Translations under genes and position numbers: made by a program
NCBI RefSeq assembly: GCF_026126425.1
Contig: NZ_JAFMPW010000011.1
Span: 1 to 64,000 of the forward strand
Direction of reading: 5' to 3'
Source: Muriicola sp. Z0-33
GTDB taxonomy: Bacteria > Bacteroidota > Bacteroidia > Flavobacteriales > Flavobacteriaceae
Length of the DNA stretch: 64,000 nucleotides
Shown here: positions 26,769 through 52,618 of the stretch, one piece after another
Position numbering within the stretch: the first letter of the stretch is position 1
Layout: each line of letters starts with the position of its first letter
The notes under the pieces: generated by a model
Database searches by the model: none
The model's input: the letters and a program-made list of their open reading frames with translations, nothing else
Told to the model about the DNA's origin: nothing

Positions 26769-29700
26769 TTAAGGTATATCCTCTCCTGCCGTATTGAAGT
26801 TTCCAGATAACAATGAAAAGTCTGGCAGGGTCACAAACCCATCTCCATTAAAGTCTGCCCGCGCATCAAAGCCGGGATCTCCCGTCTGCAGATTAAAGCT
26901 TTGAGACAAAATGGTGAAATCTGCCAGGGTCACAAAGTTGTCGTCATTAGCATCACCTGCATTGAGTACTGCAACCGTTTCCGTATTTGGGCCATCGGCA
27001 AGGATCACCGTCTGCACACGTTGCAGATGATTGCTTGTCTTAACTGCCATGAGGTAAGTTCCTGGTGGAATTCCATTAACTGTCGCTACCCCATCCGACG
27101 AACCTGTTGGCGTAAATTGCAAGAGCGGTGTACTACTACCCTGTTCATAAAAATCTACTCTAAGGTCTATACCGTAATTATTGGCCGCTCTTCCCTGAAG
27201 CGAATAGTTGATTGTTAAGTCAGCATTTACCGCATTCGGATCATAGAGCAGGCTAATTACATTGGATGTCATACTTACCTGTTGGCCTATAGTATAGGGT
27301 ACAAGAGAAGTTACTGCAACCAATTGGTTTAACCCTCCATCTGGTCCTGCATCCCCAGAAGTAGTTTCTAACAATGTAATGGGGATATCTACAGTACCTC
27401 CTGCGCCTATTACCCCAGTGTACAGCGTTTTACCAGACATAGCTTCATTGGCATAATAGGTCTCAACCGGCACATTGAAAGGCGGATCACCGGAAGCTAT
27501 GTAAAGCCTGGAATCCATATTCAACAAGGATACGTTATCACCTGGGTTCCCTGTTATAGTAACCACCTGATTTAGACTGTTTACGGTAGCCGGTCCGGTA
27601 CCGACACCCACAACCGAAATTGATGGGGTAGCCGGCGCGGCTTCTGCTATGATTGCCTGGCCACCACCTAGACTACCATCTTCATATAAGCTGCTGATAA
27701 GCGTAGTACCATCACTAAAGTTTATGGTTATAGTAGCGCCTGTTAACTCATATCCCGATACTGCTCCTGCGGCTCCTGCACCAGGAACTCCCTGGATACT
27801 GTTGGGATCTACGTCTGTTGTAAAATCAAAATACTCTCCAGGATCAAATTCGGTAAAATTCACTGTGATGATATCAAATCCGCCCTGCCTTGGTTGACTG
27901 AATGGGTCAACGGCCGGGTTGGCTGGAACTACCAGTCCTACTTCGGTGGCCCCTGTATTAGGGGTAAACGGACTCGCGGTGGCATCACCTCCGGAACCAG
28001 TAGGATCAAATACCATATCCGGAAGAATTCCCGTACTTAAATCTATAGAAATACTGGTTATCTGAGATCCACCTGTAGAGGTATTGGTTATTTGGAAACT
28101 ACTGGCAGAGAAGGTACTTGCATCAACGTCCATTCCCGGTGTAATTTCTACCAGGGCAGACGGTGCCAAAACGGCATTAGGATCAAATTCTAATACAATT
28201 ACATTTGAAGCAATACTGTTATCATTATTAGCTCCATTAGTCACCGCAATAAAATGATTTATACCGCCATCAGGCGTATTAGGCGCCCCCGGAGATTGGG
28301 TTAATACAACGGGTATGGTACCAACTCCTGAACCATCTAACTGAATGGTGTATAATTCTTTGGTCATGGCTTCGTTGGCCTCAAAAGGGTCAACGTCATA
28401 ACCTACATTGGGGTTACCCGGATCTATATACAAACGACCATCAACGCGCAATAAGGTAACAAAGGCATTTGGTTCTCCGTTGACCGTTACTACCTGGTTG
28501 GCTGTACTCACCAATCTGTTGGTTGCCAGTCCGTCTACGGTAATAACCGGTGCAATGAGGGCATTACTCGCCGCATCTACAATAGCGTCTGAACCACCCA
28601 AAGATCCTTCGTCAAACAAGCTTGACGTATAAACAACGCCACTGGCGAATTCTATGGCAACAGTAGCCCCAATAATTTCAAAACCTGAAATTGATCCTGC
28701 ATCCCCAGCAGTTAAATCGCCTTTAATTGAGGTAGGATCCATATCTACGCCAAAGGCAAAGGATTCTCCCGGATTGAAATCGGTGAAATCTAATGTCAAT
28801 TGATCGTAGCCTTCATCATTATTAACCCCGTTGTGCGGCAGTGCAAAAACACTTACACAATCTTCAGGGTCAGATCCTCCATTGGCCGGCACCGTAATAC
28901 CAACTTCCGCAGCCGTATTACCTGCACCACCCGCCGTCAGGCATTTGGCCCCATTATCCCCTGCCGTCCCAACAGGATCAAAAACCACATCCATCATATA
29001 ACCTGTCGGAGTAGTAATGGTAACATTCACGATATTATCATCACCAGTGTTTGTGAGCAAGAAAGAATCATTTCCAAAAGTTGAAGAGGTTAATCCGGAT
29101 CCTGCCGTTACCTGTACCAGGGCTGCAGGATTTCCTATTGGTTCTTCGGTAACATTCCATGTAAAGTTCACCACTGTATTTAGCGCAGGAGTACATCCAT
29201 CTGAAACCGAAACGGAGACATTGTATGGACTGTCTTCAGAAGCACCTGGCGTTCCACCAACAGCCTGTTGTGACTCAGGCCCATTTAGTGTGCTCGTTGG
29301 TACTCCATTGCTCACATCGTCTATATGTATAAGTGCAATACGGTCTACTCTATGACCTGCAGAACGCTCTGACATGGATATGGTAAAAGTACCTGGATTT
29401 GGGAAATAAGCATAGATGGGAAACGCATTGTTATCTATGGTATTTGTAGCCCAGGTATTTGCATTGGTATTGGTATAGACTTTAAAATAACCGCCAACAC
29501 CTGGACCTTCATTTCCATGATCTGGTCTGCCTTGTGCATTGCCTGCCGGCCAGTATAGGGTTTTGGTGGTATTTGCCGGATTGCTTAATTCATCAAAAAA
29601 TTGTTGCGAATTGGAAAGCGCTCCACCCTGTACACAGAAAAAGTGCACGTCAGGGGTATTGTTTATTTTAAACCAGGTATCATTCCGGTCAGTTGTACTG

Positions 29701-32700
29701 TCCGGAGGACCGATATCCGACTTCATAAAGAATCTATAAACACCTGGTGTTGAAATCTCTACATCATAATCCAAATTCTGCCCATTGAGATTGCCAAAAT
29801 GATTTGAACTTGCCTCTAGAAAGTCTGATCCACCTTCATTCAATGGGTTCCATCCACCGGCAGTATCCACAAAATCGGTTTCAGCTTCAATAATAACCAC
29901 CCCGCCACTTTCTATAAATGCTCCCGGAGTTCCACTACCACTGCCTTCATCTAATGTTCCACTGATTATTCCTGTTACAGGATCAATAGTTAAACTCGGT
30001 GGTAAATTGGTTGCCTGATAAGTTAAACCAGTACACGGATCTATATCTGAAGCAAGGATGGGAAGATTAATTACATCTCCCTCTACACTTTGTTGTGCTC
30101 CGGGGTTTGTAACTACTGGAGCTTGATTACCACCAGAAATACTTACATCAATAAGCTCGATAGCTTTCAGGGCCGGGTTTTCTCCTCCATGAATAAAAAC
30201 CAGGTCCAATGTCCCGTCCGAAACTGTAACGGTATGTGAAACCATTATGGCGCCAAGCGCCCCGGCCGTTCCAAAAGGATCAATACCCGTAAAGGCAGCT
30301 GGTACGGCGCCCTCTACCGATACATCAAATACCCGCTGTCCTCCAGCCGTTATATCACTAAATAATTCTGCAAAATATAATCTCACTTCTACTTCTGTCC
30401 CGGGGTCTACAGGGAAGGCCCAGGTCATTTCCGGAGCTCCAGTTGGGTCGAACCGTTCTGTCTGGAAAAGCTCTGCTGGAGTACCTGCAGGAATTGATGG
30501 GTGTGTTAAAACTATTGGTCCCTGATAAGCGCTACCTGCACTCTGATTATATACACCCCCAGGGGTAGTTGAAGCCGTTAAATATGGTGAGTTGCCCGCA
30601 TCACCAAAAGTGCCTGTGTCCACACTCCAATCCGGATTAGGGGCATCTGTTGCATTTACTAAATCACCTCCTGCATTTACACGATACAGCACTGCCGATG
30701 GTGCGGCACCACTAGTTAGGCTTATGTTTAATGAAGAGGAGCTTCCATAAGAAATATCCAGGGATGCCAGTTCTCCTTCTACTGTACCGGTATGAGCTAC
30801 CACAATAGCACTGCTTCCACCAGATGGGACTACGAAACTACTCCCGGATGTCACCAGTGTTCCGTTGATGCTAAAAACATTAAAATTGGTGGCATCGGCC
30901 CCGGTAAAGGAAATATCTGTTACAAAAATCCCCTGGTTCCCACCTGTATTATCAAGAATTATTGTTTCTGTAGACGTAGTCGGCACGGTCATAGATGCCG
31001 GTCCGGACAAAGCCCCGGCAACCAAAGGACTCCCGCTTGGGTTATCTGTGCCGTAAACCTCCATATTATTCTGATTGCCTCCACCCTGGTTGGGAGAACC
31101 TGAAGTAATCCATATACCATCTCCTGAAACCACAGCCTGCGTACCGTGTCTCGCATTGTTAAGATCGGCCAAGGCAGACCAGTTACCAGTACCTACATTA
31201 AGGGCATCCGTATTTACATAAGCCTGCCCACCACCTTCACCACCGATGACAACAACCTGATTCTGGAAACTCACGGTGGAAGACGCTGCCCTTGCATTCG
31301 GCAAGTCATCCACAGTACCCGCGGGTAGCCAGGTTCCGGTGGTAAAATCATAAACATCAACTTCCGGGATTAATGGCGCAAAGGTACCTCCGGTGCCACC
31401 AGATAAGCGACCACCAGCAGCATATAACCTATCTCCTACTACCGTGGCATGGAAGTGATCTCTGGAATGTGGAGCATCTGTTAAAGTAGTCCAAACTCCT
31501 GTAGCCGGATCAAATTCGTCGAACCAGGGTACGTAACCACCGTTGTGGCCAATTGTGTTTCCGGCAATCACATAGAACTTATCGTTATATAGGACCAGTC
31601 CGGCAGATCCTCTTTTTCGTCCGGCAGGGATTGCGGGGCCTTGCATCCAGCTATCGGCAATTGGATCATAAATGAAAATATTATCTGCAGGAGCTTCGTC
31701 TGGGAAGCCGTTGTCTTTAAATGAACCTATTACCCAGATCAATCCCTGATATTCTGTCGCCTGAAAATGATTAAATTCGAAGGGCGCCGTCGAGGCCGCT
31801 TCCGTCCAGGTATCTGTCTGATAGTTATATATATCTATCTTGTCAGAATTCTCTCGGCCACCGAAGAGGTAGAACTTATCCCCTACCTGTACGACAGAAT
31901 TCTCGTGTCTTGGGGTATGTTCTGTAAAATTGGTTATTGCTGTCCAGACGTCGCTAACCGGTGGACTAGCTGATATGATTTCAATAGCCTTGATACTCGG
32001 ATTCTGAGTTCCCTGTATGAAGTCTATATTCAATACGCCATCTACCACGGAAACCTCCATGGTCTCCACTTTCGCTATATTTATTTGTGATCCGTCTACA
32101 CTAGCCCTATAATCATCTAATTGCAGGACGCCTTCTACATTTACATCAAAAACTCTTGGGCTGGTAGCTTCGCCACTCCAAATTTCTGCAAAAAGCAGAT
32201 TCACAGTATAGGTCCCATTGGCAACCGGAAAAGCCCATTGCATATTATCTGGTACCGCCATAGTATTATAGCGTTCTGTAGAAAATAAACTGGTTGGATA
32301 TCCTGTAGTATTAACAAAAGACCCTGGAAGGGTTGCACCAAAGGTTATATCTTCGGCCGAAGTGTTGACATAGGTCGAAGGTGTCCCTGTTGTGGCTGTT
32401 CCGTTAGCATCTCCTGCTGATTGATCTTCTTCCCAGGCAACCGGTGAGGCATCATTAGAATTAGTTAAGTCGCCTCCAGTATTAATTCTGTATATCACAG
32501 AATTAACCGCATTTGGATCAACAACATTCCATGTGAAATTTGCAACTGCCGGGGCAGAAGATGGTTTGCTCACAGTTATGGCAACATTATAGAGCATTGC
32601 ATCATTAGGGTTTGCCGAAATGGTTCCAAGGATAGCACCATTTGTAGGCTCTATTGATAAGCCTGGTGGCAATCCTGTGGCCGCATAGGTGAATGTTTCA

Positions 32701-35700
32701 CCAGCGCTACCTCCGCTTGCAATAATACTTAATCCCGGGGTATCGCCAAGATTGTTTATCTGATTTGGAACCGTGGCAATAGTAATCGGAGGATTAGAAC
32801 TTCCGGCTCCAAGTATTTCAATTCCATTGATCAGCGGATTTTCTATAAAATGTTCAAAAAGCACATTAATAGTACCGTCTGTAAGGGTCACTGGATATTC
32901 TAACATCCCTCCCAGCTGATCGCCAAATGTGGTTATTAAATCCAGATTATCCTCTACCAATTGCCCTTCAATTGAAATGTCATAAACCCGGGTTCCGGGT
33001 GTTCCGGTTGGGCCATGGCCATTGCCCATATACAGGCGAACAAGGTAGTTTCCGTTAGGCAAACCAAATGTCCATTCCATTTCCGGTGCTGCTCCCGGAT
33101 CCCATCTCTCATTTGCGAAGATGGCTTGCGGTACATACGATGGAACCGATGGATGACTTCCTGATATGTTGTGTGTAGAGAGATTACCGGTATTAACATT
33201 GTAAGTAATTCCATTAAAAGTACCTCCCTGAGCCCCACCGGCTGTAATGCCTATCCAATCCGGATTAGGAGCATCCGTAGCCGTAATGGTGGCGCCATTG
33301 GCTCTAATCCTTAAAATTGGAACCAGGGCCTCGTTCACATTTACGGTAAAAGACTGCTCAACAAACAAATTATCTGTATCTGTAGCCCTTATAGTTATGA
33401 CCGTACTTGTCGGGGTTGCAGGATATGTAAGTGTTAAGTTAGTTCCGTTTACTGAGGCTCCGATGCTTGGATTAGTATTTGATTCCACTGTAAAGGTGAG
33501 ATTTCCTAAACCACCATCATCATTGAAAAAAGCATCTAAACCTATTAATTCATTAGCATCATTTACAATCCTGTTCAGGTCTTCTAACGTTTGGGTGATA
33601 AATGGTACAGCACCAGCTACATTAAGAAAATCCCATGCGGCGCCGTAGGCATCGTCAGTATCTGCAGTGCCAATAATACCCACCACTAATGGCTGGGCAG
33701 CACTTTGTAAACTCGTTAATACATCTCCCTGGAGCGTAAAGGGCGCGCCCAAATCATTAATGCTCCCGGCATCTATCTGATATCTGGCTTGTACACTACC
33801 AGTCGCCGAATTAATAACAAAGAACAGGTCTAAGTTTTCGGTAGTCGGGCCTGGATTGAATCCAATATCTGTAGAAGCAACATAGGTTACCCCCACTCCA
33901 TTATTTTCACCCACCACGCTGAGTTCATCGTTTTGGCCCAGCACCAACTTTACATAATCATCCTGGAAGCCATCCCCTATAAACATTCCTTGTGATTCTG
34001 TAGCTGAAAAAGTATGAAAAGGAGCAAACATACGTCCGTGGACTGTAAAACTGCCAGAACCACTGTCTGTGTTAATGCCGTATTGATAGGCCTTTTCCTG
34101 GGTATTATTGGTAGCATCTCCTGTGGTTTGATACATGGTAATTGCGCCAATGGCACCCCCTAAAATATCATCTACATCTGTGGTTGAAGCATTGGGGTCA
34201 TCTTGCCAATCTAAATAATTAGGGTTAGCATCCCCGTTGTTCATAAGGCCGGTAAATCCCAATCCCAGATATCCTCCAAGAGGAGTTCCCAGGAATAATT
34301 CGTTAATTACGGGAAGGTTAAATGGTGTGCCTAATTGCAAGGGATCTAAATTATCATTTATCCCATCGCCATCGTCATCCAAATCCAGCAAATCGGATAT
34401 TAGGTCTCCATCAAAATCTGTAGGTTGAGAAGCTCCAGAACACATATCTGTATTGTTCTGATCTTCATCATCATTGGTATAACCATCAGAATCATTGTCA
34501 CCATTTGGGTCATAACCGGTTTCGCCAGGAAGGATACAGGTTACAAAATCATTGGGTTCTAAGATCACTATATTATCACCGTTATAATTTCCTACCCAGA
34601 TTGTTCCCGGGAATATATCGCCGTCTCCCTGACAATCTAGTCCCAGGGCGTTCCCTGAAACACTAAATTTGTTTTGTTCGGTCGCAACAATATTACCACT
34701 GGCATCTCTGTCTACTCTATGTAGATTGCCACCTTTACCAGCAATAAGGTCGCCCTGCATAACACCACCGAAGTTAGAAGCAGTATATTCTGCAATGGCA
34801 TTGGTGTTGTTGCTCCAATTCACTACAATAATGTCATCCGGACCTTCAGGGTTTACTCCTGGCGTAAGTGTGGGTTGCCTGAAATCTGAATTATCGGTAT
34901 TTATCAAACTTGGATCTACAGGAGGCCAGTTGGCAGGTAAAGCTTTTAGAGGATCTGTCGCATCACCAGAACCGTTAGGATCATAGGGAACAGTTCTAAA
35001 ATATGAATCTGTAAATGGTTCGCCGGGGGCATTGGAGGTAGTGTGTGTACCCCGGGTAAATAGTCCCGCTCCTACATTAGCTCTTACAGGGCAAGGATGC
35101 CCTCCATATACAGAACCAAATGTATAGCTATCAATATCTGTGGTCACGAGGTTCAAATGATCACTATTGTTAACCTGGGGATCAAAAGGGGTTGAATTAG
35201 GTGCGGCATCAGGACCGCTACTACCGGGTTCCCCTGGCCGGTAATCATTATTGACCTGTGCCGGGTCTCCTTCAAATTCCGGGAATCCGCCCCATGTTCC
35301 ATTGGCTCCATTATCTGTAACATAAACATGCCCGTCTTGTGTAATCACATGATCATAGGTGTTTCTATAACCAGGAGAAAACATTTTTACAGGACTGCCT
35401 GGAACCAGCATCCCCATATTTAGTCCGTCATTACCTCCCCAGGGGTCATTAATGTCAATACCATCATATCCGGCAGCGTTCGGATCTGTAATTCCATTTG
35501 CGTTGGCCCTTGTTGGATCATCAAGGGTAGGGATATCATATTTATAATTCCTAGCGCCATCATTGAGAGTTGGCAAAGCTGCAATAGCATCCAGATCAAT
35601 GGCCAGTACCGCCCCGGATAAGGCATATTCTGTGATGTAAGCAAATTTAAGAGAGGGAGAACCTGCATTGGTAAAACCTCCACTACTAACAATTAGCCAA

Positions 35701-36353
35701 TCTACACCACTAATAGTCCTGAATTGTAAACCATTGGTAGCATGGTTCTCTTCAGATCTTGGGAGACCTCTAACAATATCAACGGCCTGCCAATTGCCAC
35801 CACTTTTTGTCAGTTCGGTAATAACTCCCGAGTTGGTGTCCAGGTTAACGTCTCCCCCGCCACCGCCGGCACCACGCCTACGGTCACTGGAAGAGACATA
35901 GACAACAGGGTTAGTGCTGGTCCCAGCTACCGTAATACCTGTAGATTGTCTTTGACTATTCCCATCTGCGGTACCATCATCATTATGATTGGGAATGCTC
36001 TGGACTAATGTCAATACCTCTGCGTTGGTAACCACATAATCTTGTGGACCATTGCGTTGGATGGTATACACTTTTACCAAACCATCTTCCTCTACGACGT
36101 ACAAATTACCATCTGGGCCAAACTCCAGTGCCGTGGAATTATTTACACCGGGGAATCCGTTAAAATTTAAATTGCTTGAGTCAAATGAAATCTGCGCTTG
36201 TATTTGCCCTATACTCAAGATGAGTAGGGCAAATAAAAGCATTCCTATTTTTAATCTCATTGATTGCTTAGATGCAATTGGAGATTGGTCCTCATTATTT
36301 AATATTAGCGCACACGCCTTGGTGCCATTTGCGTTTAAATCTCTCATTTTCAT
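26769..36353 (-). CDS. Giant secreted malectin/Kelch protein with C-terminal dockerin
   Basis: 3194 aa. Signal peptide up to about 54 (MRLKIGMLLFALLILSIGQ from Met32, which could also be the start, at 36260). Estimated order: beta-propeller like sorbosone dehydrogenases (55-600); Asp-rich thrombospondin-3-like repeats (618-671); jelly-roll region (672-915); cadherin-like (917-1008); malectin-like domains (1010-1182, 1283-1459, 1888-2068) with interspersed Ig folds; Kelch propeller (1470-1765); carbohydrate-binding-like domain (2150-2343); two tandem units of about 310 aa (2409-2729, 2730-3038); a beta-sandwich X-like module (3040-3130); then a dockerin pair, DANDDNFVTLAD (3134-3145) and DFNGDGFVTLPD (3167-3178). 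No T9SS sorting domain. It lies 19 nt after the cohesin giant. Probably a surface glycan-binding protein; no hydrolase domain recognised. Confidence 0.88.
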   Translation of the reverse strand: MKMRDLNANGTKACALILNNEDQSPIASKQSMRLKIGMLLFALLILSIGQIQAQISFDSSNLNFNGFPGVNNSTALEFGPDGNLYVVEEDGLVKVYTIQRNGPQDYVVTNAEVLTLVQSIPNHNDDGTADGNSQRQSTGITVAGTSTNPVVYVSSSDRRRGAGGGGGDVNLDTNSGVITELTKSGGNWQAVDIVRGLPRSEENHATNGLQFRTISGVDWLIVSSGGFTNAGSPSLKFAYITEYALSGAVLAIDLDAIAALPTLNDGARNYKYDIPTLDDPTRANANGITDPNAAGYDGIDINDPWGGNDGLNMGMLVPGSPVKMFSPGYRNTYDHVITQDGHVYVTDNGANGTWGGFPEFEGDPAQVNNDYRPGEPGSSGPDAAPNSTPFDPQVNNSDHLNLVTTDIDSYTFGSVYGGHPCPVRANVGAGLFTRGTHTTSNAPGEPFTDSYFRTVPYDPNGSGDATDPLKALPANWPPVDPSLINTDNSDFRQPTLTPGVNPEGPDDIIVVNWSNNTNAIAEYTASNFGGVMQGDLIAGKGGNLHRVDRDASGNIVATEQNKFSVSGNALGLDCQGDGDIFPGTIWVGNYNGDNIVILEPNDFVTCILPGETGYDPNGDNDSDGYTNDDEDQNNTDMCSGASQPTDFDGDLISDLLDLDDDGDGINDNLDPLQLGTPFNLPVINELFLGTPLGGYLGLGFTGLMNNGDANPNYLDWQDDPNASTTDVDDILGGAIGAITMYQTTGDATNNTQEKAYQYGINTDSGSGSFTVHGRMFAPFHTFSATESQGMFIGDGFQDDYVKLVLGQNDELSVVGENNGVGVTYVASTDIGFNPGPTTENLDLFFVINSATGSVQARYQIDAGSINDLGAPFTLQGDVLTSLQSAAQPLVVGIIGTADTDDAYGAAWDFLNVAGAVPFITQTLEDLNRIVNDANELIGLDAFFNDDGGLGNLTFTVESNTNPSIGASVNGTNLTLTYPATPTSTVITIRATDTDNLFVEQSFTVNVNEALVPILRIRANGATITATDAPNPDWIGITAGGAQGGTFNGITYNVNTGNLSTHNISGSHPSVPSYVPQAIFANERWDPGAAPEMEWTFGLPNGNYLVRLYMGNGHGPTGTPGTRVYDISIEGQLVEDNLDLITTFGDQLGGMLEYPVTLTDGTINVLFEHFIENPLINGIEILGAGSSNPPITIATVPNQINNLGDTPGLSIIASGGSAGETFTYAATGLPPGLSIEPTNGAILGTISANPNDAMLYNVAITVSKPSSAPAVANFTWNVVDPNAVNSVIYRINTGGDLTNSNDASPVAWEEDQSAGDANGTATTGTPSTYVNTSAEDITFGATLPGSFVNTTGYPTSLFSTERYNTMAVPDNMQWAFPVANGTYTVNLLFAEIWSGEATSPRVFDVNVEGVLQLDDYRASVDGSQINIAKVETMEVSVVDGVLNIDFIQGTQNPSIKAIEIISASPPVSDVWTAITNFTEHTPRHENSVVQVGDKFYLFGGRENSDKIDIYNYQTDTWTEAASTAPFEFNHFQATEYQGLIWVIGSFKDNGFPDEAPADNIFIYDPIADSWMQGPAIPAGRKRGSAGLVLYNDKFYVIAGNTIGHNGGYVPWFDEFDPATGVWTTLTDAPHSRDHFHATVVGDRLYAAGGRLSGGTGGTFAPLIPEVDVYDFTTGTWLPAGTVDDLPNARAASSTVSFQNQVVVIGGEGGGQAYVNTDALNVGTGNWSALADLNNARHGTQAVVSGDGIWITSGSPNQGGGNQNNMEVYGTDNPSGSPLVAGALSGPASMTVPTTSTETIILDNTGGNQGIFVTDISFTGADATNFNVFSINGTLVTSGSSFVVPSGGSSAIVVAHTGTVEGELASLDISYGSSSSLNISLTSGAAPSAVLYRVNAGGDLVNATDAPNPDWSVDTGTFGDAGNSPYLTASTTPGGVYNQSAGSAYQGPIVLTHPSIPAGTPAELFQTERFDPTGAPEMTWAFPVDPGTEVEVRLYFAELFSDITAGGQRVFDVSVEGAVPAAFTGIDPFGTAGALGAIMVSHTVTVSDGTLDLVFIHGGENPALKAIELIDVSISGGNQAPVVTNPGAQQSVEGDVINLPILASDIDPCTGLTYQATNLPPSLTIDPVTGIISGTLDEGSGSGTPGAFIESGGVVIIEAETDFVDTAGGWNPLNEGGSDFLEASSNHFGNLNGQNLDYDVEISTPGVYRFFMKSDIGPPDSTTDRNDTWFKINNTPDVHFFCVQGGALSNSQQFFDELSNPANTTKTLYWPAGNAQGRPDHGNEGPGVGGYFKVYTNTNANTWATNTIDNNAFPIYAYFPNPGTFTISMSERSAGHRVDRIALIHIDDVSNGVPTSTLNGPESQQAVGGTPGASEDSPYNVSVSVSDGCTPALNTVVNFTWNVTEEPIGNPAALVQVTAGSGLTSSTFGNDSFLLTNTGDDNIVNVTITTPTGYMMDVVFDPVGTAGDNGAKCLTAGGAGNTAAEVGITVPANGGSDPEDCVSVFALPHNGVNNDEGYDQLTLDFTDFNPGESFAFGVDMDPTSIKGDLTAGDAGSISGFEIIGATVAIEFASGVVYTSSLFDEGSLGGSDAIVDAASNALIAPVITVDGLATNRLVSTANQVVTVNGEPNAFVTLLRVDGRLYIDPGNPNVGYDVDPFEANEAMTKELYTIQLDGSGVGTIPVVLTQSPGAPNTPDGGINHFIAVTNGANNDNSIASNVIVLEFDPNAVLAPSALVEITPGMDVDASTFSASSFQITNTSTGGSQITSISIDLSTGILPDMVFDPTGSGGDATASPFTPNTGATEVGLVVPANPAVDPFSQPRQGGFDIITVNFTEFDPGEYFDFTTDVDPNSIQGVPGAGAAGAVSGYELTGATITINFSDGTTLISSLYEDGSLGGGQAIIAEAAPATPSISVVGVGTGPATVNSLNQVVTITGNPGDNVSLLNMDSRLYIASGDPPFNVPVETYYANEAMSGKTLYTGVIGAGGTVDIPITLLETTSGDAGPDGGLNQLVAVTSLVPYTIGQQVSMTSNVISLLYDPNAVNADLTINYSLQGRAANNYGIDLRVDFYEQGSSTPLLQFTPTGSSDGVATVNGIPPGTYLMAVKTSNHLQRVQTVILADGPNTETVAVLNAGDANDDNFVTLADFTILSQSFNLQTGDPGFDARADFNGDGFVTLPDFSLLSGNFNTAGEDIP
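26772..26960 (-). other. Dockerin type I coding segment
   Basis: Encodes residues about 3132-3194 of the 3194-aa protein. Two 12-residue calcium loops fit D-x-N-x-D-x-x-V-x-x-x-D exactly and are followed by helix segments FTILSQSFN and FSLLSGNFN, with a 21-residue link. Both repeats keep every calcium-ligand position. Confidence 0.88.
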
Positions 36354-36372
36354 ATGCTTTTAAGACGTGTTT

Positions 36373-39300
36373 TTATCTTTTAATGGCCATTTGCTCCTGG
36401 AATTCTTTTCCTTCCACATCTCGGGCCCTCACAAAATAAGTTCCCGCAGGTAAGTCCTGTACCTGAATTAAGTAAACACCAACATCTACATTATCATTGG
36501 CTTTTACACGCTTAATTAACCTTCCGGTCACATCATAAATGAGTATATCCTGAAGCTGGGCTGGGGTATCAAATACCAAATTTGCGTCCCTGTCTGCAGG
36601 GTTAGGTGAAATCATCACAGAACTAACTGGTTCCATAGAGGGTAAGAACAAACCTACCGTAAAGTTTACAGTTAAGGACTGCCCGGCTGCTCCTGTACCA
36701 CTTGCACCTTCATAGGGTGTAGCGGTTAGGGTATATGACCCTTGCGGAATCGTCTTAGCAGCATAATCTCCTGCGCTATCGGCGTAAAGTGCATATGGTG
36801 CAGCAGATTCTGTCCAAACTCTTGAAGCAGCACCTGTCATAACAAATTTCACACTACCCACCACGCCTGGGTCTGTATTGGCTCTGATATTTATTCCTAC
36901 TCCGTTACCAATATTATCACCATCATCAATTAAGAACAGGTCATTGTCTGTTACTCCGTCTACCAGGGTAAAGCTAATCACCTTGATGATATCATTTGGA
37001 TCTACTGCTTCTACCTGAATACTGGTAGATCCTGTGGCATCTTCATTATCCTTGACAGTTAATGTAACTGTTCTGACACCGGTGCTGGCATAGGTATGCA
37101 TGGCAGTTGGGGTGGCAGACACAAAGGTGTCACCGTCTCCAAAGTCCCATGAATATTCAACAATATCACCATCATTATCTATAGAGGCTGCTCCTGAGAA
37201 ATTCACTTTGAAGGGCACCACCGGATCTGCGTTGCCCGTTGCTACAGCAATTGGCGGCTGGTTCTGTGGAGGACCATCAATAACAGAGAAATTCACTATA
37301 ATAGTGGCACCTACATTAGGATTAGCCACCAATCTGTAATCCCCAACAGGGAATACCTGCCCTAATACATTGGTGCCTATATCTCCAAATAACGAGAAGG
37401 GAGCGGAAGAACCTTCTGCCTTGTTCTGGTTTATTGGACCCGTAAGGCTAAAGAAAATGCCATTAGGATTTAGATCAGGATTATATACTATTCCCCAAGG
37501 AATAGCACTTTGTTGAATTTGCAAGCCATCTGTGAGTGCAAATAATGGCAGATCTGTATTGGCATCCAATACAATTAATGCGGCATTAGAAGTTGGGGTG
37601 GTCACCGTAACACTTCTGTTTGCACTATTGCTGCATCCTGTGGCAGGATCGGTATATGAATAAGTAATCTGATGCGTACCTACTCCTGCAACTCCGGGAT
37701 CGAACTGATTTCCGCTTACTCCCGGGCCACTATAAGTGCCTCCCGCAGGGGATCCATCTAGTGTAATCGCCCCATCGGTATTAATAATAGGTGAAGGTAA
37801 TGCAGCCAAAGTAACTACTGGCCCCGCCGGATCGCTTAAGGTAACCGACTTCACAACAGAACATCCATTAGCATCTGTAACAGTTACAGTATGTGTCCCC
37901 TCATCAAGATTGTTAGCCGTTTGGTTGGTATTTCCATTGCTCCACAAATAAGTGAATGCGGCTGTGCCATTTTGTGGCTGTACCGTTGCGCTACCATCAT
38001 TGCCACCACAACTTGTAGGATCTGAAACTGCTGTAATACTGGCATTAAAGCCAATACAATTGGGATCCTGGTCTGTTATTTGGAAATTCACAGTTAAAGG
38101 AGTTCCCACGGTTCCTCCCAGACTATTACCAGAATATGGAGTAGCCAGAATGGTGTAATCTCCTATTACGAAATTACTTCCCGCATAATTACCTCCGCTA
38201 TCCCCATAAAGTGCGTAGGGCGCAAAATTCTCTGTTTGCCCTTTGGCCTTAGCACCACTGAGTTCTAGCCGTACACTTTCTGTATCATCGGTAGTATTTG
38301 CTCTAATGTTCAGGTTAGTTGTAGGTAAGGAGGTAATGTCTATAATATCCCCCTCCATTAACGGCCTGATATCCTGCTCATTATCGGCATTTACCAAAGT
38401 AAAGCTGATTACAGACAAGACTGTAGGTGCTTCATCCACAGTGACATCAAATGAACAACTGGCCTGGTTCCCAGCGCCATCTGTCGTTGTGATGGTTACC
38501 TCAACAAGTCCGGAAACAATGGTTCCGGCAGCCGGAACCTGGACTGTAGTTGCACCTGGGCAATTATCACCGGTTAAGGCCGCTGCAGTATAATCTGGCA
38601 AGGCAACCTCGCCGTTTTCATCTCCCTGAACATTGGTATTCCCCGGACAAACTACTACCGGAGGTTCCGTATCATTTACTGTAACATTAAATGTATTTTG
38701 ACCTACATTTCCACTGGCATCTGTGGCCGTTACCACAACCTCGGTGGTTCCTATTGGGAACACGCTTCCACTTGCAGGAACACTGCTGGCGGCTACACCC
38801 GGACAATTATCAGTGAAATCTGCCATGAAATCCACAACAGCTCCACATACACCTGGGTCATTACTTACAATAATATCTGCCGGGACACCTACCGTTGGCG
38901 CTTCAATATCGTTAACTGTGACATTAAAAGTACACAGGGCAGTATTCCCCGCTGCATCAGTGGCCATTATAGTCACTTCTGTAATTCCTACCGGGAAGAA
39001 AGAACCTCCTGCAGGTGATGCACTGGCTGTTACTCCCGGGCGGTCATCGTCCAGGGCAGCAACCATAAAGTCTACAATAGCCCCGCATTGTCCGGGATCA
39101 TTACTGACAACTATATCTGCCGGACAAGTTACCGTTGGATCCGTTGTATCGGGTTCTATGGATACATAAACTTCCCATTGCTGATTTGCTCCGGATTGTG
39201 AAGTTACATTGTAAAGTACAGGAACAACAGGATCAAAATTTTGAGCTTGTCCTGAAGGTGGATTTACAAGGGCAAACGGAGATACTCCAATGTTGGGTAT

Positions 39301-42300
39301 TAGTCCGGTTAAGCCCGTTGCAAAATCTACAACAAGATTTACAGTATGATCTCCGGCATTAATATCTGCAGCACCCACCTGACCTGGTATAGCAAAAGAT
39401 ACTATGTCATTTGCGGAAGATGCGGTGAAGTCGACCATTACAGTTTGTCCGCACTGAGCGCCGTTTCCGCTGGCATCTACTGCCGTCCAGGTAATGGTGG
39501 TAGCACCAACAGGATAAGGATCAGTCAGGGCCAACCCATCACCCCGAACACCAGTCACAAGAGGAGTAGGATCACAACTATCAGTTGCGGTGGCCGTTCC
39601 AATATCTACAAGCGGGATGACAATATCATTGCCGTCAAGACTGATTCTATTTACAGTTGGTGGGCATAAAATAACCGGAGGTGTACTGTCTGTAATGGTT
39701 AAAGGAACACCTGGGAAGCTTACCACACAATTGGTTAATCCGTCAGCTTGTACCACTATATCGTAAGTTCCTTCTGGAAGACCAGTAAAACTGTTACCTG
39801 CCTGGAAGGTTAACCCATTATCTATACTGTACTGCAGGTTATTTCCTGTCGCGTTTATTGTTATAGTACCATCATTAACTCCACAATCTGAGGGATTATT
39901 AGTAACAACACTAGATATAACTGGTACTTCCGGGGCTGTTAACGTCGCCTGATCAGAAGCCGTACAACTAGGGGAGCCTACTTCACGTACGGTCACGGTA
40001 TATATCCCGCCTGGCAAATCGCCAAAGGTATTGCTACCCTGGAATGGGCCACCTATACTGTATTCAAGGTTTACACCCGTGGCTGTAATCACAATCTGTC
40101 CGTCGTCAACATTACAATCTGACGGATCAGTAGTTGCTACATTAGAAATAACCGGTGCTGCAGGAGCTGTAAGATTAACTGAATTGGTCGCTAAACATGT
40201 AACAGATCCGTTTTCTAGTACTACAATATTATAACTACCTGCCGCAAGATCTGTAAAAATGCTATTTGCCACAAAAATGGTACCACCATCAATACTGTAC
40301 AATAGGTCTGTGCCCGTTGCGGTAATCATAATAGTTCCGTCATTTACCCCACAATCTGAAGGGTCGGTTGCGGTAATATTGTCTATAGTAGGCAATACAG
40401 GTGCCACTAAGGTCACCTGATCCGTAGCCTGGCAATTAACAGACCCATTGGCCTCTACCACTATATCATATGTTCCACCAGCAAGGCCAGTAAAACTGTT
40501 ACTTGCCTGGAAGGTAGTACCATTGTCTATGCTGTATAGCAGACTTGTACCAGTTGCCGAGATGGTAATTGTACCATCCTCTATCCCGCAATCTGTTGGA
40601 TCTGTTGGTGTTACGCTTACTAAGTTGACATCGCAAACTTCGAAAGTCACTATATCCTTAGCATCTGCATTGGTGAATTCTGTATGCAAGCCTTCAGCGG
40701 CCACAATGACCACGGTATTTGTACCTGGAACAATACCATCAGCGGCACCCAATTCCCAGAATAACTGCCCAATCTGGTCTGCCGTTGAGATTCTATCAAG
40801 TGGATCCAGGTTATTAGGATCAGCAGGGTTTACCCAGAGGTGAAAATGCTCATCAAACGGATTTAATAACAGCATGTTTGCTGCTGTCCACATAAATTGT
40901 ATTTCCGTGGTATTCAGCACCTCGGCATCTGCTGGGAAGGTAAAGTCTACATCAGGTCCGGGAACGGTAACAGATATAGTAGCAGTTTCTACATTTCCGT
41001 CACTATCCGTCACACTGGCATTGATATTGTGCGTCCCAACCGTAATCAATTCATCTGAAAAAGAACCTCCTGTACCAGCAAATTCTGGGGCTGTAGGAGA
41101 ACTCCAGCTTAAAGTGGAAGTCAGGGCTGCATCATCATCTTCAACATCTGTTGCGTTACCTTCAAAAGTTGTAGTAACGTTTCGGTCTATAGTTGCGCCA
41201 TTGAGTGGCATGGTTATAAACACTTCGGGTGGAGTATCTGAAGATGTACAGATGCTAAACCCTTTAACAGCCGGGTTTTGAGTGCCTTTAATAAAGTCGA
41301 TATTAAGCTCCCCGTCTACCACAGTAACTTTAAATGTCTCTACTCTGGCCACATTGATCTGACTACCGTCCACACTTGGTCTGTAATCATCCAATTCTAA
41401 GACACCTTCAACATTAACATCAAAGACCCTTGGTTCGCCTGCCTCTCCGCTCCATTTTTCGTTAAATAAGATGCTCACCTCAAAAACTCCATTCCCTGTG
41501 GGGAAAGTCCAGTTCATTTGCGGATCTGCACTCCAGCGTTCTGTTTGGAACAAATAATCAGGATAGCCAGTGGTATTGGAAACTAAAGGAGTGGTTGCTC
41601 CAAAGGTAGTATCTGTATTAGGTGGCGTAGTGTTGACATACGAAGAAGGTGTCCCCGTCTGTGCTGTACCGCCTGCATTGGCTGCAGACTGGTCTGCCTC
41701 AAAATTACCCGAAGCCGAGGCGTATAAGGGTCCTCCGGCATTTACTCTAAAAGCCACGTCGCAATTAGGCGCCGGCGGTCCTATAATAACTGTAATGGTG
41801 GCCGACCCTGTTTGCGGATCGGAACCATCACTATCTGTGACTTCTGCGGTAATTATATGTGTACCTACACTTAATGCTGTTGTATTAAAGCTAGCTCCAG
41901 AACCTATGGCATTATCTAAATTTGAAGTCCAACTTAGATTCGCTGCAATATCACCATCTTCAGGGTCATTTGCAGTAGCGCTGAAAGTGATGTCTGTACC
42001 CTGTTCTGCTGCAATATTATCAGCTGGCGAAGTAATGAACACCAATGGTGCGGCATTACTATTATTCGGAGTAAACTCAAATTCTGTAATGTTGGTACCT
42101 CCTGTAAATTCGAACCGAATGGTCTGCAAGCCTGGGCTCACAAAGGTGACCAGATCCGTATAATCAGCAAAGCTGCCCCAGCCATTGCTGGGTACCGTTA
42201 TACTGCCAATCGGCACAAACCCACCGCCGTTATCAACAAGGATGTTAAAGGTATTAGTGCCACCAGAACCGTTGGAAGCATTTACCCTGATATCATAGTT

Positions 42301-45300
42301 GCCCCCTGCAGGCACATCTATAAGGTATTCTACAAAATCGTTATTATCGATCCAACCTATGTTACCAGCATTTTCAATAGCTACTGAAAAATCTTGGCCC
42401 GGAGATCCAGATGGGGAACCTCCGTAATGCGGTAAAGGACTGGCGAAAGTCCTGGCCAGGATGACTCCAGGGGTTATGTCTTGAGCAACATTGATGGTAA
42501 ATGCCTCTACAACATCCGGGTTAGAACCATCATTGGCAATTACCCTGGCTTCGTAGGAACGGCCATCACCTATGCTGGTTGGCCAGTTTAAAGTATAGCT
42601 GCCAGCGCCATTATCGGTAAAGGTATAATCTGCCGGATCTACAACTGCGGCAGGCGTATAAGGGCTGTTATTTCCTAATGGCGCACTCTTGTCGTATATG
42701 ACAATAGTAGCAGCCGGATTAAAATCATCGTTAACCTGTACGTCAACATTTACAATACTGCCTTCGTCAATAGCAACATCTGCAATGGCGTCAACGGTAG
42801 GTGGTAAATCATTAGCCGGACTGAAATTAAAGTCCCGGATATTAACACCCCCTCCACCTGAAAAATCAAGGCGTAAAGTCTGAATCCCGGCATTGGTAAA
42901 TGTTACCACAAACTGGTAGGAAACATATGTTTGCCATCCCGTTACATTAGCGTCGAAACTGCCTATAGGTGAAAATCCTCCCCCATTTTCTTCTGACAAG
43001 GTGGTAGTTAGGGTGCCGGATCCACTACCTGCAAAAAATTCAACATTATAGTCGCCCGGTACAGGTACATCTATGACATATTCAACAAACTCTCCTGGCC
43101 CTATATATCCGATATTTTCTGCCGCATTATTTTCTATTGTGATTGTATATCCTGAAGGAGTTGGGTTACCGCCGTAAAAGGGTAGCGGAGCGCTAATTGT
43201 TTTAGCCAGAATGGAACCTGGAATATCCTGAGCGATATTGATATTAAAATCCTGAGTTACGGCAGGGTTTGTGCCATCATCTGTTGTTATTCTTGCTAAA
43301 TACGATCTTCCATCCGGAATCCCGGCAGGAAAATCCAATGTAAAATTACCCGCTCCGTCATCGGTCAAATTAAAACCGCCAATAGTACTGCCAGATGTCC
43401 AGGGCGTGGTATTGGCAAGCGGATTAGGAACCGCACTTTTATCATATACCACAACAGAGGTAGTCAGATTTGGATAATCTTCATCGGTAATCTGAATAGG
43501 AACATTAAAGGCCTCCCCATCGCCAGCTTCAACATCCGCTATCGGTGCAATGACTGGAGCCAAATTTGGTGGACTTAAATACAGCAATTCAAAATAATCT
43601 ATATTAAATAAGAATCCGCCGCCGCTGGTCCAATCAAAGCGCAATGTTTGTGGGCCCTGCGGTAAGTTTATATTTAGCGTTTGTATCTGGTAGTTACCAA
43701 AACCACCGGTGCCTACTGCCGTAAAAGTACCTGCCACATTCCCATCAGAGGATATGTTCATTGTAGCACCTGCTGAAGCGTTCGGAATCCCTACAAAAAG
43801 ATCAAATCGATAAATACCGGCAGTTGCCACATCAATCTCATACTCAGCATAATCTCCCGTGTTGGTAAAACCAATATTGGTAAAACCGGCATCTATTTCA
43901 ACGCCTATTCCTTTGCTATCACCGGTACCTCCTGGTTGCGTATTTGCCGGGCCCTGGTTGTCAAAAGATTCGGCTTCTATTCTTGTAATGGCAGTACCTG
44001 AGACCGGCTGTGCCACATCATTTACTGTAAGTACTAAATCACTCGATGTAGAATTGCCGTCCTCATCGCTGTATTGCACAGTTATGGTATATGTTCCACT
44101 ACCATCTCCATTTGCACCTCCCCCGTCTCCAAAGACCGGGTTAAATTGTAATTGCGAGATATAAGATCCTCCTATATTTTCAGTATTGTTTTCGGTAAAG
44201 AAACCATCGGCAGTCGTTGGGAACGGGTCTACTTGTTTTCCACTATTTGCTGACTGCAACAATTGCGGTTCGTTGGACACTGTGCTAGTACTAACCGTAA
44301 GATTATCCCCGTCCGCATCGGTTATGGAAAGGGGAATATTAAGATTACCACCTTCGTCTACCGATGCAGTCCCTGCCAGGCTAATTACAGGAGCTGTATC
44401 TGCCACCGAAACTGTAAAGTTTACTGCCGTGGAGGTTGTTGTGGTATTTATGTCGGAAGCTACAGCAGTTAAGTTATAGGTGCCTACTGCAAGATTGTTT
44501 AACGCAAAATCATAGGGTGCTGAATTAACTGTACCCAGAGATACAGGCCCGTCAAATAACTCTACCTGGGTAACCCCATTGTCATCATTGGCATCAACCA
44601 TCACGGTTAAATTGTCTCCTTCGGTAAAAGAAGCTCCATCTGCCGGGTTGGTAATGCTTACTGTTGGCGGAAGATCTACAGCGGGGTTGACATTTATATT
44701 CACCACTGAGGAAGTTGTACTTCCCGTAGCATCATAGGCCACAGCTGTTAAAGCGTAAGAACCAACAGATATATTATTCAAAGGAAGGTTGTAAGGAGCA
44801 GTATTGTCTTGGCCTAACAAAACAATACCATCGTAAAACTCCACGTTTACAATGCCAATATCATCGGTTGCGGTTACTTCAACCAATACGTTTGCCCCCT
44901 CGGTAAAAGTATCCCCATCATTTGGTGAGTCTATACTCACAACGGGGGGAAGGTCTATGCCATTAATCGTTACCGGAATATTTGAAGCAGTTCCTAATAC
45001 CGGGACACCTCCTCCGGTTATTTGTGTTTGTCTGGGAAAAACTGTATTAAAATCCAGTGATGTACTCCCAATCCCAAGGGTATTAAAGGTAATCTCCACA
45101 AAGTCGAAATCCGCTGTTAATTGCGCAAAAGCTCCAGATGCCAGGTCAATAGTACCTGCGTTATTATCAAATATTGGAGCAATAATAGGAATGGGTAATT
45201 GGCCAGCAGCAAGAAAATTCAAAGAGGTAACTTCCAGCAAGGTCTCATCAAAATCTAAGTGTACCTCGGCCCCATCTACAGTACCACCAATTATATCCAC

Positions 45301-45576
45301 GCTAATGGTTACTGTTATTGGATCTCCAACATCTACCACCGGTGCCAGAGGGCTACTTACAAAGTCTGCCTGTGCCTGCAAGGAAGGTGTTGCAAGAAGC
45401 AGAAAAAAGAGGGCAAGGATTGGCTGCCATATCCATTTTCTACCCGGATTTGGTAATGGTACTATTAAATTTTCAAGGCTTTTCTGAAGGGATGTCACTG
45501 AAAAGCATAACCTGTTGATTATGGATCTTAAAGATCCAAACTTCATGGTCCTTGGTGTTGGTGTAATCTTTTGCAT
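36373..45576 (-). CDS. Giant T9SS-secreted protein with N-terminal cohesin-like domain
   Basis: 3067 aa; a long n-region and signal peptide end near 69 (SLQAQ). Estimated order: cohesin-like domain (71-206: VDVGDPITVTISVDI, GAEVHLDFDETLLEV, VEITFNTLGIGSTSLDF); two Big_7-type Ig domains (208-393); three units each with a CBM6-like module (529-667, 787-915, 1039-1169); malectin (1270-1444); four SprB-like repeats of about 80 aa (1645-1965); HYR domains (1966-2380); modules of a recurring LVNAD-ATPY type (2384-2498, 2662-2770, 2864-2975); PKD (2782-2860, YSWDFGDGD); and a T9SS type A sorting domain (2986-3067: ISPNPA, DVTGRLIK, DLPAGTYFVRA). First gene of operon A. A scaffold/adhesin role is inferred from domains. 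No catalytic domain seen. Confidence 0.9.
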   Translation of the reverse strand: MQKITPTPRTMKFGSLRSIINRLCFSVTSLQKSLENLIVPLPNPGRKWIWQPILALFFLLLATPSLQAQADFVSSPLAPVVDVGDPITVTISVDIIGGTVDGAEVHLDFDETLLEVTSLNFLAAGQLPIPIIAPIFDNNAGTIDLASGAFAQLTADFDFVEITFNTLGIGSTSLDFNTVFPRQTQITGGGVPVLGTASNIPVTINGIDLPPVVSIDSPNDGDTFTEGANVLVEVTATDDIGIVNVEFYDGIVLLGQDNTAPYNLPLNNISVGSYALTAVAYDATGSTTSSVVNINVNPAVDLPPTVSITNPADGASFTEGDNLTVMVDANDDNGVTQVELFDGPVSLGTVNSAPYDFALNNLAVGTYNLTAVASDINTTTTSTAVNFTVSVADTAPVISLAGTASVDEGGNLNIPLSITDADGDNLTVSTSTVSNEPQLLQSANSGKQVDPFPTTADGFFTENNTENIGGSYISQLQFNPVFGDGGGANGDGSGTYTITVQYSDEDGNSTSSDLVLTVNDVAQPVSGTAITRIEAESFDNQGPANTQPGGTGDSKGIGVEIDAGFTNIGFTNTGDYAEYEIDVATAGIYRFDLFVGIPNASAGATMNISSDGNVAGTFTAVGTGGFGNYQIQTLNINLPQGPQTLRFDWTSGGGFLFNIDYFELLYLSPPNLAPVIAPIADVEAGDGEAFNVPIQITDEDYPNLTTSVVVYDKSAVPNPLANTTPWTSGSTIGGFNLTDDGAGNFTLDFPAGIPDGRSYLARITTDDGTNPAVTQDFNINIAQDIPGSILAKTISAPLPFYGGNPTPSGYTITIENNAAENIGYIGPGEFVEYVIDVPVPGDYNVEFFAGSGSGTLTTTLSEENGGGFSPIGSFDANVTGWQTYVSYQFVVTFTNAGIQTLRLDFSGGGGVNIRDFNFSPANDLPPTVDAIADVAIDEGSIVNVDVQVNDDFNPAATIVIYDKSAPLGNNSPYTPAAVVDPADYTFTDNGAGSYTLNWPTSIGDGRSYEARVIANDGSNPDVVEAFTINVAQDITPGVILARTFASPLPHYGGSPSGSPGQDFSVAIENAGNIGWIDNNDFVEYLIDVPAGGNYDIRVNASNGSGGTNTFNILVDNGGGFVPIGSITVPSNGWGSFADYTDLVTFVSPGLQTIRFEFTGGTNITEFEFTPNNSNAAPLVFITSPADNIAAEQGTDITFSATANDPEDGDIAANLSWTSNLDNAIGSGASFNTTALSVGTHIITAEVTDSDGSDPQTGSATITVIIGPPAPNCDVAFRVNAGGPLYASASGNFEADQSAANAGGTAQTGTPSSYVNTTPPNTDTTFGATTPLVSNTTGYPDYLFQTERWSADPQMNWTFPTGNGVFEVSILFNEKWSGEAGEPRVFDVNVEGVLELDDYRPSVDGSQINVARVETFKVTVVDGELNIDFIKGTQNPAVKGFSICTSSDTPPEVFITMPLNGATIDRNVTTTFEGNATDVEDDDAALTSTLSWSSPTAPEFAGTGGSFSDELITVGTHNINASVTDSDGNVETATISVTVPGPDVDFTFPADAEVLNTTEIQFMWTAANMLLLNPFDEHFHLWVNPADPNNLDPLDRISTADQIGQLFWELGAADGIVPGTNTVVIVAAEGLHTEFTNADAKDIVTFEVCDVNLVSVTPTDPTDCGIEDGTITISATGTSLLYSIDNGTTFQASNSFTGLAGGTYDIVVEANGSVNCQATDQVTLVAPVLPTIDNITATDPSDCGVNDGTIMITATGTDLLYSIDGGTIFVANSIFTDLAAGSYNIVVLENGSVTCLATNSVNLTAPAAPVISNVATTDPSDCNVDDGQIVITATGVNLEYSIGGPFQGSNTFGDLPGGIYTVTVREVGSPSCTASDQATLTAPEVPVISSVVTNNPSDCGVNDGTITINATGNNLQYSIDNGLTFQAGNSFTGLPEGTYDIVVQADGLTNCVVSFPGVPLTITDSTPPVILCPPTVNRISLDGNDIVIPLVDIGTATATDSCDPTPLVTGVRGDGLALTDPYPVGATTITWTAVDASGNGAQCGQTVMVDFTASSANDIVSFAIPGQVGAADINAGDHTVNLVVDFATGLTGLIPNIGVSPFALVNPPSGQAQNFDPVVPVLYNVTSQSGANQQWEVYVSIEPDTTDPTVTCPADIVVSNDPGQCGAIVDFMVAALDDDRPGVTASASPAGGSFFPVGITEVTIMATDAAGNTALCTFNVTVNDIEAPTVGVPADIIVSNDPGVCGAVVDFMADFTDNCPGVAASSVPASGSVFPIGTTEVVVTATDASGNVGQNTFNVTVNDTEPPVVVCPGNTNVQGDENGEVALPDYTAAALTGDNCPGATTVQVPAAGTIVSGLVEVTITTTDGAGNQASCSFDVTVDEAPTVLSVISFTLVNADNEQDIRPLMEGDIIDITSLPTTNLNIRANTTDDTESVRLELSGAKAKGQTENFAPYALYGDSGGNYAGSNFVIGDYTILATPYSGNSLGGTVGTPLTVNFQITDQDPNCIGFNASITAVSDPTSCGGNDGSATVQPQNGTAAFTYLWSNGNTNQTANNLDEGTHTVTVTDANGCSVVKSVTLSDPAGPVVTLAALPSPIINTDGAITLDGSPAGGTYSGPGVSGNQFDPGVAGVGTHQITYSYTDPATGCSNSANRSVTVTTPTSNAALIVLDANTDLPLFALTDGLQIQQSAIPWGIVYNPDLNPNGIFFSLTGPINQNKAEGSSAPFSLFGDIGTNVLGQVFPVGDYRLVANPNVGATIIVNFSVIDGPPQNQPPIAVATGNADPVVPFKVNFSGAASIDNDGDIVEYSWDFGDGDTFVSATPTAMHTYASTGVRTVTLTVKDNEDATGSTSIQVEAVDPNDIIKVISFTLVDGVTDNDLFLIDDGDNIGNGVGINIRANTDPGVVGSVKFVMTGAASRVWTESAAPYALYADSAGDYAAKTIPQGSYTLTATPYEGASGTGAAGQSLTVNFTVGLFLPSMEPVSSVMISPNPADRDANLVFDTPAQLQDILIYDVTGRLIKRVKANDNVDVGVYLIQVQDLPAGTYFVRARDVEGKEFQEQMAIKR
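44959..45366 (-). other. Cohesin-like domain coding segment
   Basis: Encodes residues about 71-206 of the 3067-aa protein. Features of cohesins: start after the signal peptide, a GDPITVTISV strand, an LDFDETLLEV strand pair (compare LxYDPxxLEV), a GTIDLASGAF strand and VEITFNTLG-GSTSLDF near the end. Profile confirmation was not possible. Confidence 0.65.
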
Positions 45577-51529: not shown

Positions 51530-51581
51530 GTTGGTTTATTTATAATGTTCTCGGCAGTTGAACTGCTTATATAACTTATTT

Positions 51582-52082
51582 TTAGTTCCTTGAAGGATAT
51601 ACCCCTGTTAGTGCAATACAATAATTGACAACAAGGTAGGGTTGCATATTGTTGACCGCCTGTCCTCCGCCAGTATTAGCTGTCGGTGCAGCACTAATAT
51701 CGGAGGTTGTTCCAAAGGCATTGGTACCGTCGCCCGCAACTACATTTCCGGTAGGATCATCGCTATCCCCCTCTGCCATTGCAGCAATTGCATGATTATG
51801 GGAAGGCATATTATTTACCCCAATCACGTTGGTCTCGGATCCTCCACGCTGTCCAATGGTACGAGTAGAAAACCCTGGGCCTGTTCCAAAGTGCATTGGT
51901 GCTCTACCTCTTAAATCTGGGAGACCAAAAGTGGTTCTCCCGTCTCCCCCGTAGATTGTCCCTAAAAGTGAAAATAAAGCTTCATTACTGGATATTGCCA
52001 GCAATGAACCATCACATAAAGCCCATCCCCGAGGGGCAAAGTTGAATCCAAATGCCTGAATTTGTCCTATAAATGGTTCCAT
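51582..52082 (-). CDS. Phage tail-collar / microcystin-dependent-protein family protein, copy 1
   Basis: 166 aa. Starts MEPFIGQIQAFGFNFAPRGW and has ALCDGSLL, IYGGDGRTTFGLPDLRGR, a central SHNHAI and C-terminal VVNYCIALTGVYPSRN: the short collar-domain proteins named after Mdp (microcystin-dependent protein), abundant in Bacteroidota chromosomes. No signal peptide. No other phage genes are near, so this is not a prophage remnant. Follows its paralogue by 22 nt and precedes the 1539-aa T9SS protein by 52 nt. A 76-nt stretch (51902-51977) is identical to the paralogue. Role in the host cell is unknown. Confidence 0.9.
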   Translation of the reverse strand: MEPFIGQIQAFGFNFAPRGWALCDGSLLAISSNEALFSLLGTIYGGDGRTTFGLPDLRGRAPMHFGTGPGFSTRTIGQRGGSETNVIGVNNMPSHNHAIAAMAEGDSDDPTGNVVAGDGTNAFGTTSDISAAPTANTGGGQAVNNMQPYLVVNYCIALTGVYPSRN

Positions 52083-52605: not shown

Positions 52606-52618
52606 AAATTTCTGTGTT

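Follow-up and report, generated by a model that had tools for sequence, protein, structure and literature searches.

Most of what is known of cohesin-dockerin coupling comes from Gram-positive cellulosomes, and cohesins and X-dockerins are tight, calcium-dependent binding partners. A T9SS sorting domain sends the protein that bears it to the cell surface by way of the type IX system. Three reports are relevant here. In Ruminococcus flavefaciens, ScaE is a cell-surface-linked protein with a single cohesin, which holds CttA or ScaB by their C-terminal X-dockerin (PMC5301203). For Candidatus Stygibacter (Cloacimonadota), a protein resembling a scaffoldin has been described in which tandem cohesins are combined with a type IX CTD (PMC8542988). 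A T9SS paper reported no cohesins or dockerins, in line with other Bacteroidetes (PMC5831590).

The window, that is, the whole stretch of DNA analyzed in this study, is 64,000 nucleotides in length and comes from Muriicola sp. Z0-33. An earlier note on this DNA had pointed to an ORF of 3067 aa and the next gene, 19 nt apart; the coordinates and the order of the two ORFs are as it gave them. They are named P0002 and P0001 here, and their features are as follows.

36373..45576, minus strand: P0002, cohesin-bearing T9SS type A protein, 3067 aa
44950..45381, minus strand: cohesin, P0002 residues 66-209 (family profile, E 3.7e-41)
43585..43977, minus strand: CBM6, P0002 residues 534-664, the best of three matches (Pfam, 2.6e-29)
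41281..41754, minus strand: malectin, P0002 residues 1275-1432 (Pfam, 4.8e-13)
36403..36612, minus strand: T9SS type A C-terminal sorting domain, P0002 residues 2989-3058 (PF18962, TIGR04183)
36354..36372, minus strand: intergenic gap between P0002 and P0001, 19 nt
26769..36353, minus strand: P0001, X-dockerin protein, 3194 aa
34545..36191, minus strand: propeller-like N-terminal region of P0001, common to paralogues with a sorting-domain tail
32004..32498, minus strand: malectin, P0001 residues 1286-1450, the best of three (Pfam, 1.7e-42 for the whole protein)
31098..31952, minus strand: Kelch repeats, P0001 residues about 1468-1752
26961..27224, minus strand: X-module, P0001 residues 3044-3131, directly before the dockerin (alignment with relatives)
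26799..26960, minus strand: dockerin with two calcium-loop repeats, at the extreme C-terminus of P0001 (PF00404)

P0002 precedes P0001 in transcription order on the same strand. No promoter-like or terminator-like site was found in the 19-nt gap, and the two genes are probably co-transcribed, judging from the sequence. P0002 begins with a hydrophobic signal and the cohesin, ends in the sorting domain, and carries Ig-like, CBM6, malectin, HYR, and PKD domains in between. P0001 has an N-terminal hydrophobic signal, the propeller-like region, three malectin domains, Kelch repeats, and the X-dockerin. The segment at 46910-53191 of the window, between an acyltransferase gene and the cohesin gene, encodes P0003, which is a T9SS protein of 1539 aa, and two proteins with phage tail-collar domains (51582-52605); a 190-aa ORF also lies there. 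In Pricia antarctica (G347) and in another genome (G250), the cohesin gene comes directly after the matching block.

Is the N-terminal domain of P0002 truly a cohesin? The earlier note had placed one at residues 71-206, for which PF00963 gives only a marginal match: the isolated domain reaches 4.6e-4 and 20.8 bits, under the cut-off of 24.1 bits. No PF00963 match was reported for full-length P0002. Because PF00963 found nothing in a search of the Muriicola sp. Z0-33 genome, a cohesin profile was built from relatives; its E-value of 3.7e-41 for 44950-45381 is that of a profile in which the window sequence is one of the rows. As a single-sequence query, the domain retrieved no relative from 149 genomes, while profile searches did find relatives, and phmmer against PDB sequences gave a chance match only. 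It is the fold and a homologue that speak for the assignment. The homologue in Pricia antarctica (7e-30) passes PF00963 with 28.3 bits, as does the Xanthomarina cohesin partner with 25.7 bits. An AlphaFold model made from the window sequence and its relatives has a pLDDT of 93.7 and a pTM of 0.84, and structural comparison ranks solved cohesins first (Foldseek, 6.3e-9; Z 15.2 over 132-135 residues). Judged by this model, the N-terminal domain of P0002 is a genuine cohesin with a jelly-roll fold. At the other end of the protein, the sorting domain exceeds both cut-offs, with 35.6 bits for PF18962 (cut-off 27) and 28.6 bits for TIGR04183 (cut-off 23).

Two further observations concern the same gene. 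A segment of about 90 aa (FTLVNAD...DI....G..I....LPT.NLNIRA) recurs in the C-terminal parts of P0002 (36373-45576) and P0003 (46910-51529); it has no Pfam match and is probably an undescribed surface-protein domain. Three diverged 151-nt repeats lie within the cohesin gene, at 39746-40601 of the window.

The dockerin of P0001 is above the PF00404 cut-off of 22.9 bits, with 1.4e-7 for the full protein and 38.3 bits in the genome search. Its loops, DANDDNFVTLAD and DFNGDGFVTLPD, both fit D-x-N-x-D-x-x-x-T-x-x-D by eye. Thus, the earlier reading of a two-repeat dockerin that keeps its calcium ligands is confirmed. Its best match among PDB sequences is the cellulosomal dockerin 2y3n_B (7e-9). An alignment revealed that about 88 residues ahead of the dockerin are also conserved across relatives. 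When the Formosa maritima relative was modeled, the whole dyad came closest to the solved X-dockerins of type II from ScaA, CipA, and CipB, with Z 15.2-15.8 over about 140 residues. The C-terminus of P0001, with its fold read from the Formosa relative and transferred to the window dyad by homology, is an X-dockerin dyad of the type that mates with type II cohesins. No T9SS sorting domain was found when the whole protein and its tail were compared with PF18962 and TIGR04183. The earlier view that one of the two proteins is a predicted T9SS export and the other is not agrees with this distribution of recognizable sorting domains.

The two modules were also modeled as one chain, using a relative in place of the window pair. 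In Formosa, they are in-frame neighbors, and the fused chain runs from the X-dockerin through a stop codon read as Ser and a signal peptide to the cohesin. The model has high per-domain confidence but a pTM of 0.56; its cohesin half matches solved cohesins with Z 15.6.

It was asked whether the genome encodes further dockerin proteins. The cohesin and X-dockerin profiles found one cohesin and two X-dockerins in it. The second X-dockerin, just such a further dockerin as the earlier note had proposed to look for, belongs to the following gene.

G000:C22:86042-88828 (L029:10037-12829, minus strand): P0005, GSDH-type sugar dehydrogenase with an X-dockerin, 930 aa

P0005 consists of a glucose/sorbosone dehydrogenase domain, a cytochrome-c-like domain, and a C-terminal X-dockerin that is 71% identical to that of P0001. 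The libraries recognized no T9SS sorting domain in it, and the adjoining 256-aa ORF is not a cohesin. It is the sole enzymatic dockerin protein found in the genome. The proposed assembly would therefore not be strictly "non-enzymatic", contrary to what had been suggested. No cellulase-type domain was found in P0001 or P0005.

Is the pair a peculiarity of this genome? By Pfam alone, cohesin and dockerin genes were found side by side in 6 of a sample of 397 genomes of the family. The X-dockerin profile then yielded 78 loci in the genome collection. Many genomes also have sub-threshold PF00404 matches, most of which are fragments of the second repeat within ORFs of about 1000 aa; these were not counted as dockerins. 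At 11 loci of flavobacteria or related bacteria, a cohesin gene of 248-287 aa comes immediately after the gene for an X-dockerin protein of about 1500-2000 aa (Xanthomarina, UBA3078, Formosa, two Mangrovimonas, four Hanstruepera, Lacinutrix, and a Bacteroidia MAG). These minimal cohesin partners comprise a signal peptide, a cohesin, and a sorting domain. The reverse order, with a giant cohesin gene followed by a giant X-dockerin gene, was found in the window, Pricia, G250, two Robiginitalea, four Arenibacter, and two uncultured Flavobacteriaceae. The giant genes are 19 to 33 nt apart or overlap slightly, and they occupy a syntenic location in several genera. The cohesin partners end in a T9SS sorting domain and the X-dockerin proteins usually have none. 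Thus, what had been regarded as an unusual pair is not unique to Muriicola sp. Z0-33. The earlier note had described both modules, and it had missed the X-module, the second X-dockerin, and this recurrence.

In 19 Bacteroidota genomes searched in full, most of which were chosen for holding an X-dockerin and not for a cohesin, there are 21 cohesins and 22 X-dockerins, and the numbers are equal in 18 of the 19 genomes. The remaining one is Muriicola sp. Z0-33, with its extra X-dockerin on P0005. Twenty of the 22 X-dockerin genes directly adjoin a cohesin gene; these adjacency counts are not independent, because the genomes are related. The two without a cohesin neighbor are P0005 and a gene near a contig end in G464. 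In the latter genome, a cohesin gene and a sorting-domain end are both truncated and lie on two contigs, a pattern that fits a gene split by the assembly. In a phylum-wide sample of 277 genomes, strong X-dockerin matches were found in three, including Muriicola sp. Z0-33, and all three also have cohesin matches. Distances among the cohesins are correlated with those among the X-dockerins (matrix comparison over 24 pairs, Mantel r 0.90), which was not used as proof because shared ancestry alone could produce it.

Cohesins and X-dockerins co-occur in unrelated phyla as well. Levyibacteriota and a similar MAG (L143, L153, L155, and L158) have cohesin proteins of 189-212 aa near X-dockerin genes, with an N-terminal hydrophobic helix that could be a membrane anchor. 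In a MAG labeled Pleurocapsa, a cohesin protein with a tail that resembles LysM by eye (L098:14546-16369) lies beside three X-dockerin genes. The pair may be used with other anchors outside the T9SS phyla.

What do relatives of P0001 have in place of the X-dockerin? Its N-terminal 550 residues have homologues, two of them elsewhere in the same genome. Among 44 distinct homologues, the tail is an X-dockerin only in 25, a sorting domain only in 14, neither in five, and both in none. Of the five with neither, two resemble a sorting domain by eye, and the others are truncated where the stretch ends. When sorting-domain tails were checked against curated libraries, five of seven passed; the two from the Muriicola sp. 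Z0-33 genome were sub-threshold. One of the five that passed is the tail of a homologue of P0005 in another genome (G075), 58% identical. Thus, a second protein family, unrelated to the first, shows the exchange too. Mangrovimonas aestuarii has two X-dockerin paralogues, each with a cohesin neighbor, and a third paralogue just downstream with a sorting domain. Neolewinella and G637 have chains of three genes, which encode, in this order, an X-dockerin protein, a protein with a cohesin and an X-dockerin, and a protein with one or more cohesins and a sorting domain. Each chain has a single sorting domain, on the last protein. An exception to the alternation is G617, where a cohesin, an X-dockerin, and a sorting domain are present in the same protein (L277:3229-10974, L276:13831-18195).

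I consider it likely that P0002 and P0001 form a two-gene surface-display unit, in which the T9SS-sorted cohesin protein anchors the X-dockerin protein. The cohesin protein is probably the surface anchor for the other, because the pair recurs in many marine bacteria and only the cohesin partner has an export-and-attachment tag. The cohesin/dockerin pairing, which had been proposed as an inference, is thus backed by the recurrence, the two gene orders, the alternation, and the fact that 18 of 19 genomes have as many cohesins as X-dockerins. The type IX secretion system, presumed in this genome from the sorting domains, would export P0002 and fix it to the outer surface via its C-terminal sorting domain, and P0002 would present a single cohesin at its N-terminus. 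P0001, with a Sec-type signal and no sorting domain found, would bind this cohesin in a calcium-dependent manner through its terminal X-dockerin. The anchor would hold the long glycan-binding protein, with its malectin, Kelch, and propeller-like regions, at the surface. P0005, the GSDH-cytochrome enzyme encoded elsewhere, would probably be held by the same anchor. P0002 would then supply attachment, and perhaps export, to partners without a sorting signal of their own. The export route of P0001 would be one of two: it may be carried through with the cohesin protein, or it may be captured outside.

The first route is a stronger form of the display-unit explanation. The X-dockerin protein would already be bound to its cohesin partner in the periplasm, and both would pass the type IX translocon together, with the cohesin protein giving the secretion signal in trans. 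The replacement of the sorting domain by an X-dockerin in the P0001-type and GSDH-type families argues for it, as do the smallest cohesin partners, which are little more than a cohesin and a sorting domain, and the three-gene chains with a sorting domain on the last protein only. However, a 3000-aa client with its carrier is a very large load, and capture after another export route would give the same genomic pattern. On balance, export in trans is quite possible, if short of probable. With a shade more reserve, I tentatively suggest that the X-dockerin is a portable secretion tag, by which proteins that have lost a sorting domain, or have never had one, are exported and anchored in trans, non-covalently, via the T9SS. 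It is also conceivable, but somewhat doubtful, that the cohesin protein is purely an anchor, like the anchoring scaffoldins of clostridia: the X-dockerin protein may exit otherwise, by an unrecognized signal, vesicles, or lysis, and then dock. Such surface capture fits ScaE-CttA, in which X-dockerin proteins with CBMs are held by a single cohesin that is linked by sortase (PMC5301203), but no other outer-membrane export signal was recognized by the libraries on the X-dockerin proteins studied here.

Alternatively, the pair may be an inherited operon in which the cohesin acts as a generic Ig-like module for adhesion, with the dockerin binding another target or stabilizing the C-terminus. The structural matches include a cohesin-like fold in a fibrillar adhesin (CLIPPER domain, 9ifr), and the giant pair is syntenic in several genera. 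This is unlikely, however, since the opposite gene orders, the near-equal counts per genome, and the occurrence in unrelated phyla suit binding partners better than passive linkage. A true multi-enzyme cellulosome is highly improbable: cohesin, dockerins, CBM6, and malectin do occur in one genome and one dockerin protein is an enzyme, but the whole genome has one cohesin and two dockerin proteins, neither with a cellulase-type domain. On these counts (1 cohesin, 2 X-dockerins), it was rejected, as there is no multi-cohesin scaffoldin and there are not many dockerin enzymes. Dockerin-bearing plant cell wall-degrading enzymes were not found, the lone enzyme being the GSDH-type dehydrogenase. Of the "cellulosome-like docking pair" of the earlier note, the pairing is supported, and it is nearer to a single-cohesin anchor with an X-dockerin client, as in type II systems or ScaE-CttA, than to a cellulosome.

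The pair is a recurrent two-gene unit of marine flavobacteria and related Bacteroidota, tied to type IX secretion. If the display-unit explanation is true, it accounts for the display of some large surface proteins without a sorting signal, and makes it testable whether the T9SS exports a partner non-covalently. At about 250 aa, the natural adaptors would also make simple surface-display tools in Bacteroidota. No earlier description of flavobacterial cohesin/X-dockerin pairs was found in the literature searched, which comprised papers outside subscription.

How does the pair compare with the known systems? The non-cellulosomal cohesin of Archaeoglobus fulgidus (PDB 2xdh) is a structural match (Z 13.4-13.5), but it is archaeal and has no T9SS. 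The closest prior description found is that of Candidatus Stygibacter, which likewise has cohesins with a type IX sorting domain and dockerin-bearing signal-peptide proteins (PMC8542988). As far as the available part of that report goes, it differs in its tandem cohesins, in having enzymes as dockerin clients, in being based on a MAG, and in its phylum, and no X-dockerin, gene pairing, or sorting-domain alternation was found there (PMC8542988). The closest fold is that of the type II cohesin/X-dockerin of CipA and ScaA (PDB 2b59, 4wi0, 3kcp, 5g5d), with the Z of 15.2-15.8 obtained for the relative. There, an X-dockerin links a client to an anchoring cohesin, as is proposed here, whereas the clostridial system differs in having scaffoldins with many cohesins and SLH-type anchors (PMC4217186). 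The closest functional parallel is ScaE-CttA, with a surface-linked single cohesin and a carbohydrate-binding X-dockerin protein, as is likely here. In contrast to the pair described here, ScaE-CttA is Gram-positive, with an LPXTG/sortase anchor and X-dockerins with three insertions (PMC5301203). The pair of the window belongs to a Gram-negative bacterium, has a T9SS sorting domain as the tag, and has an X-dockerin whose model is nearer to the type II dyads of ScaA and CipA.
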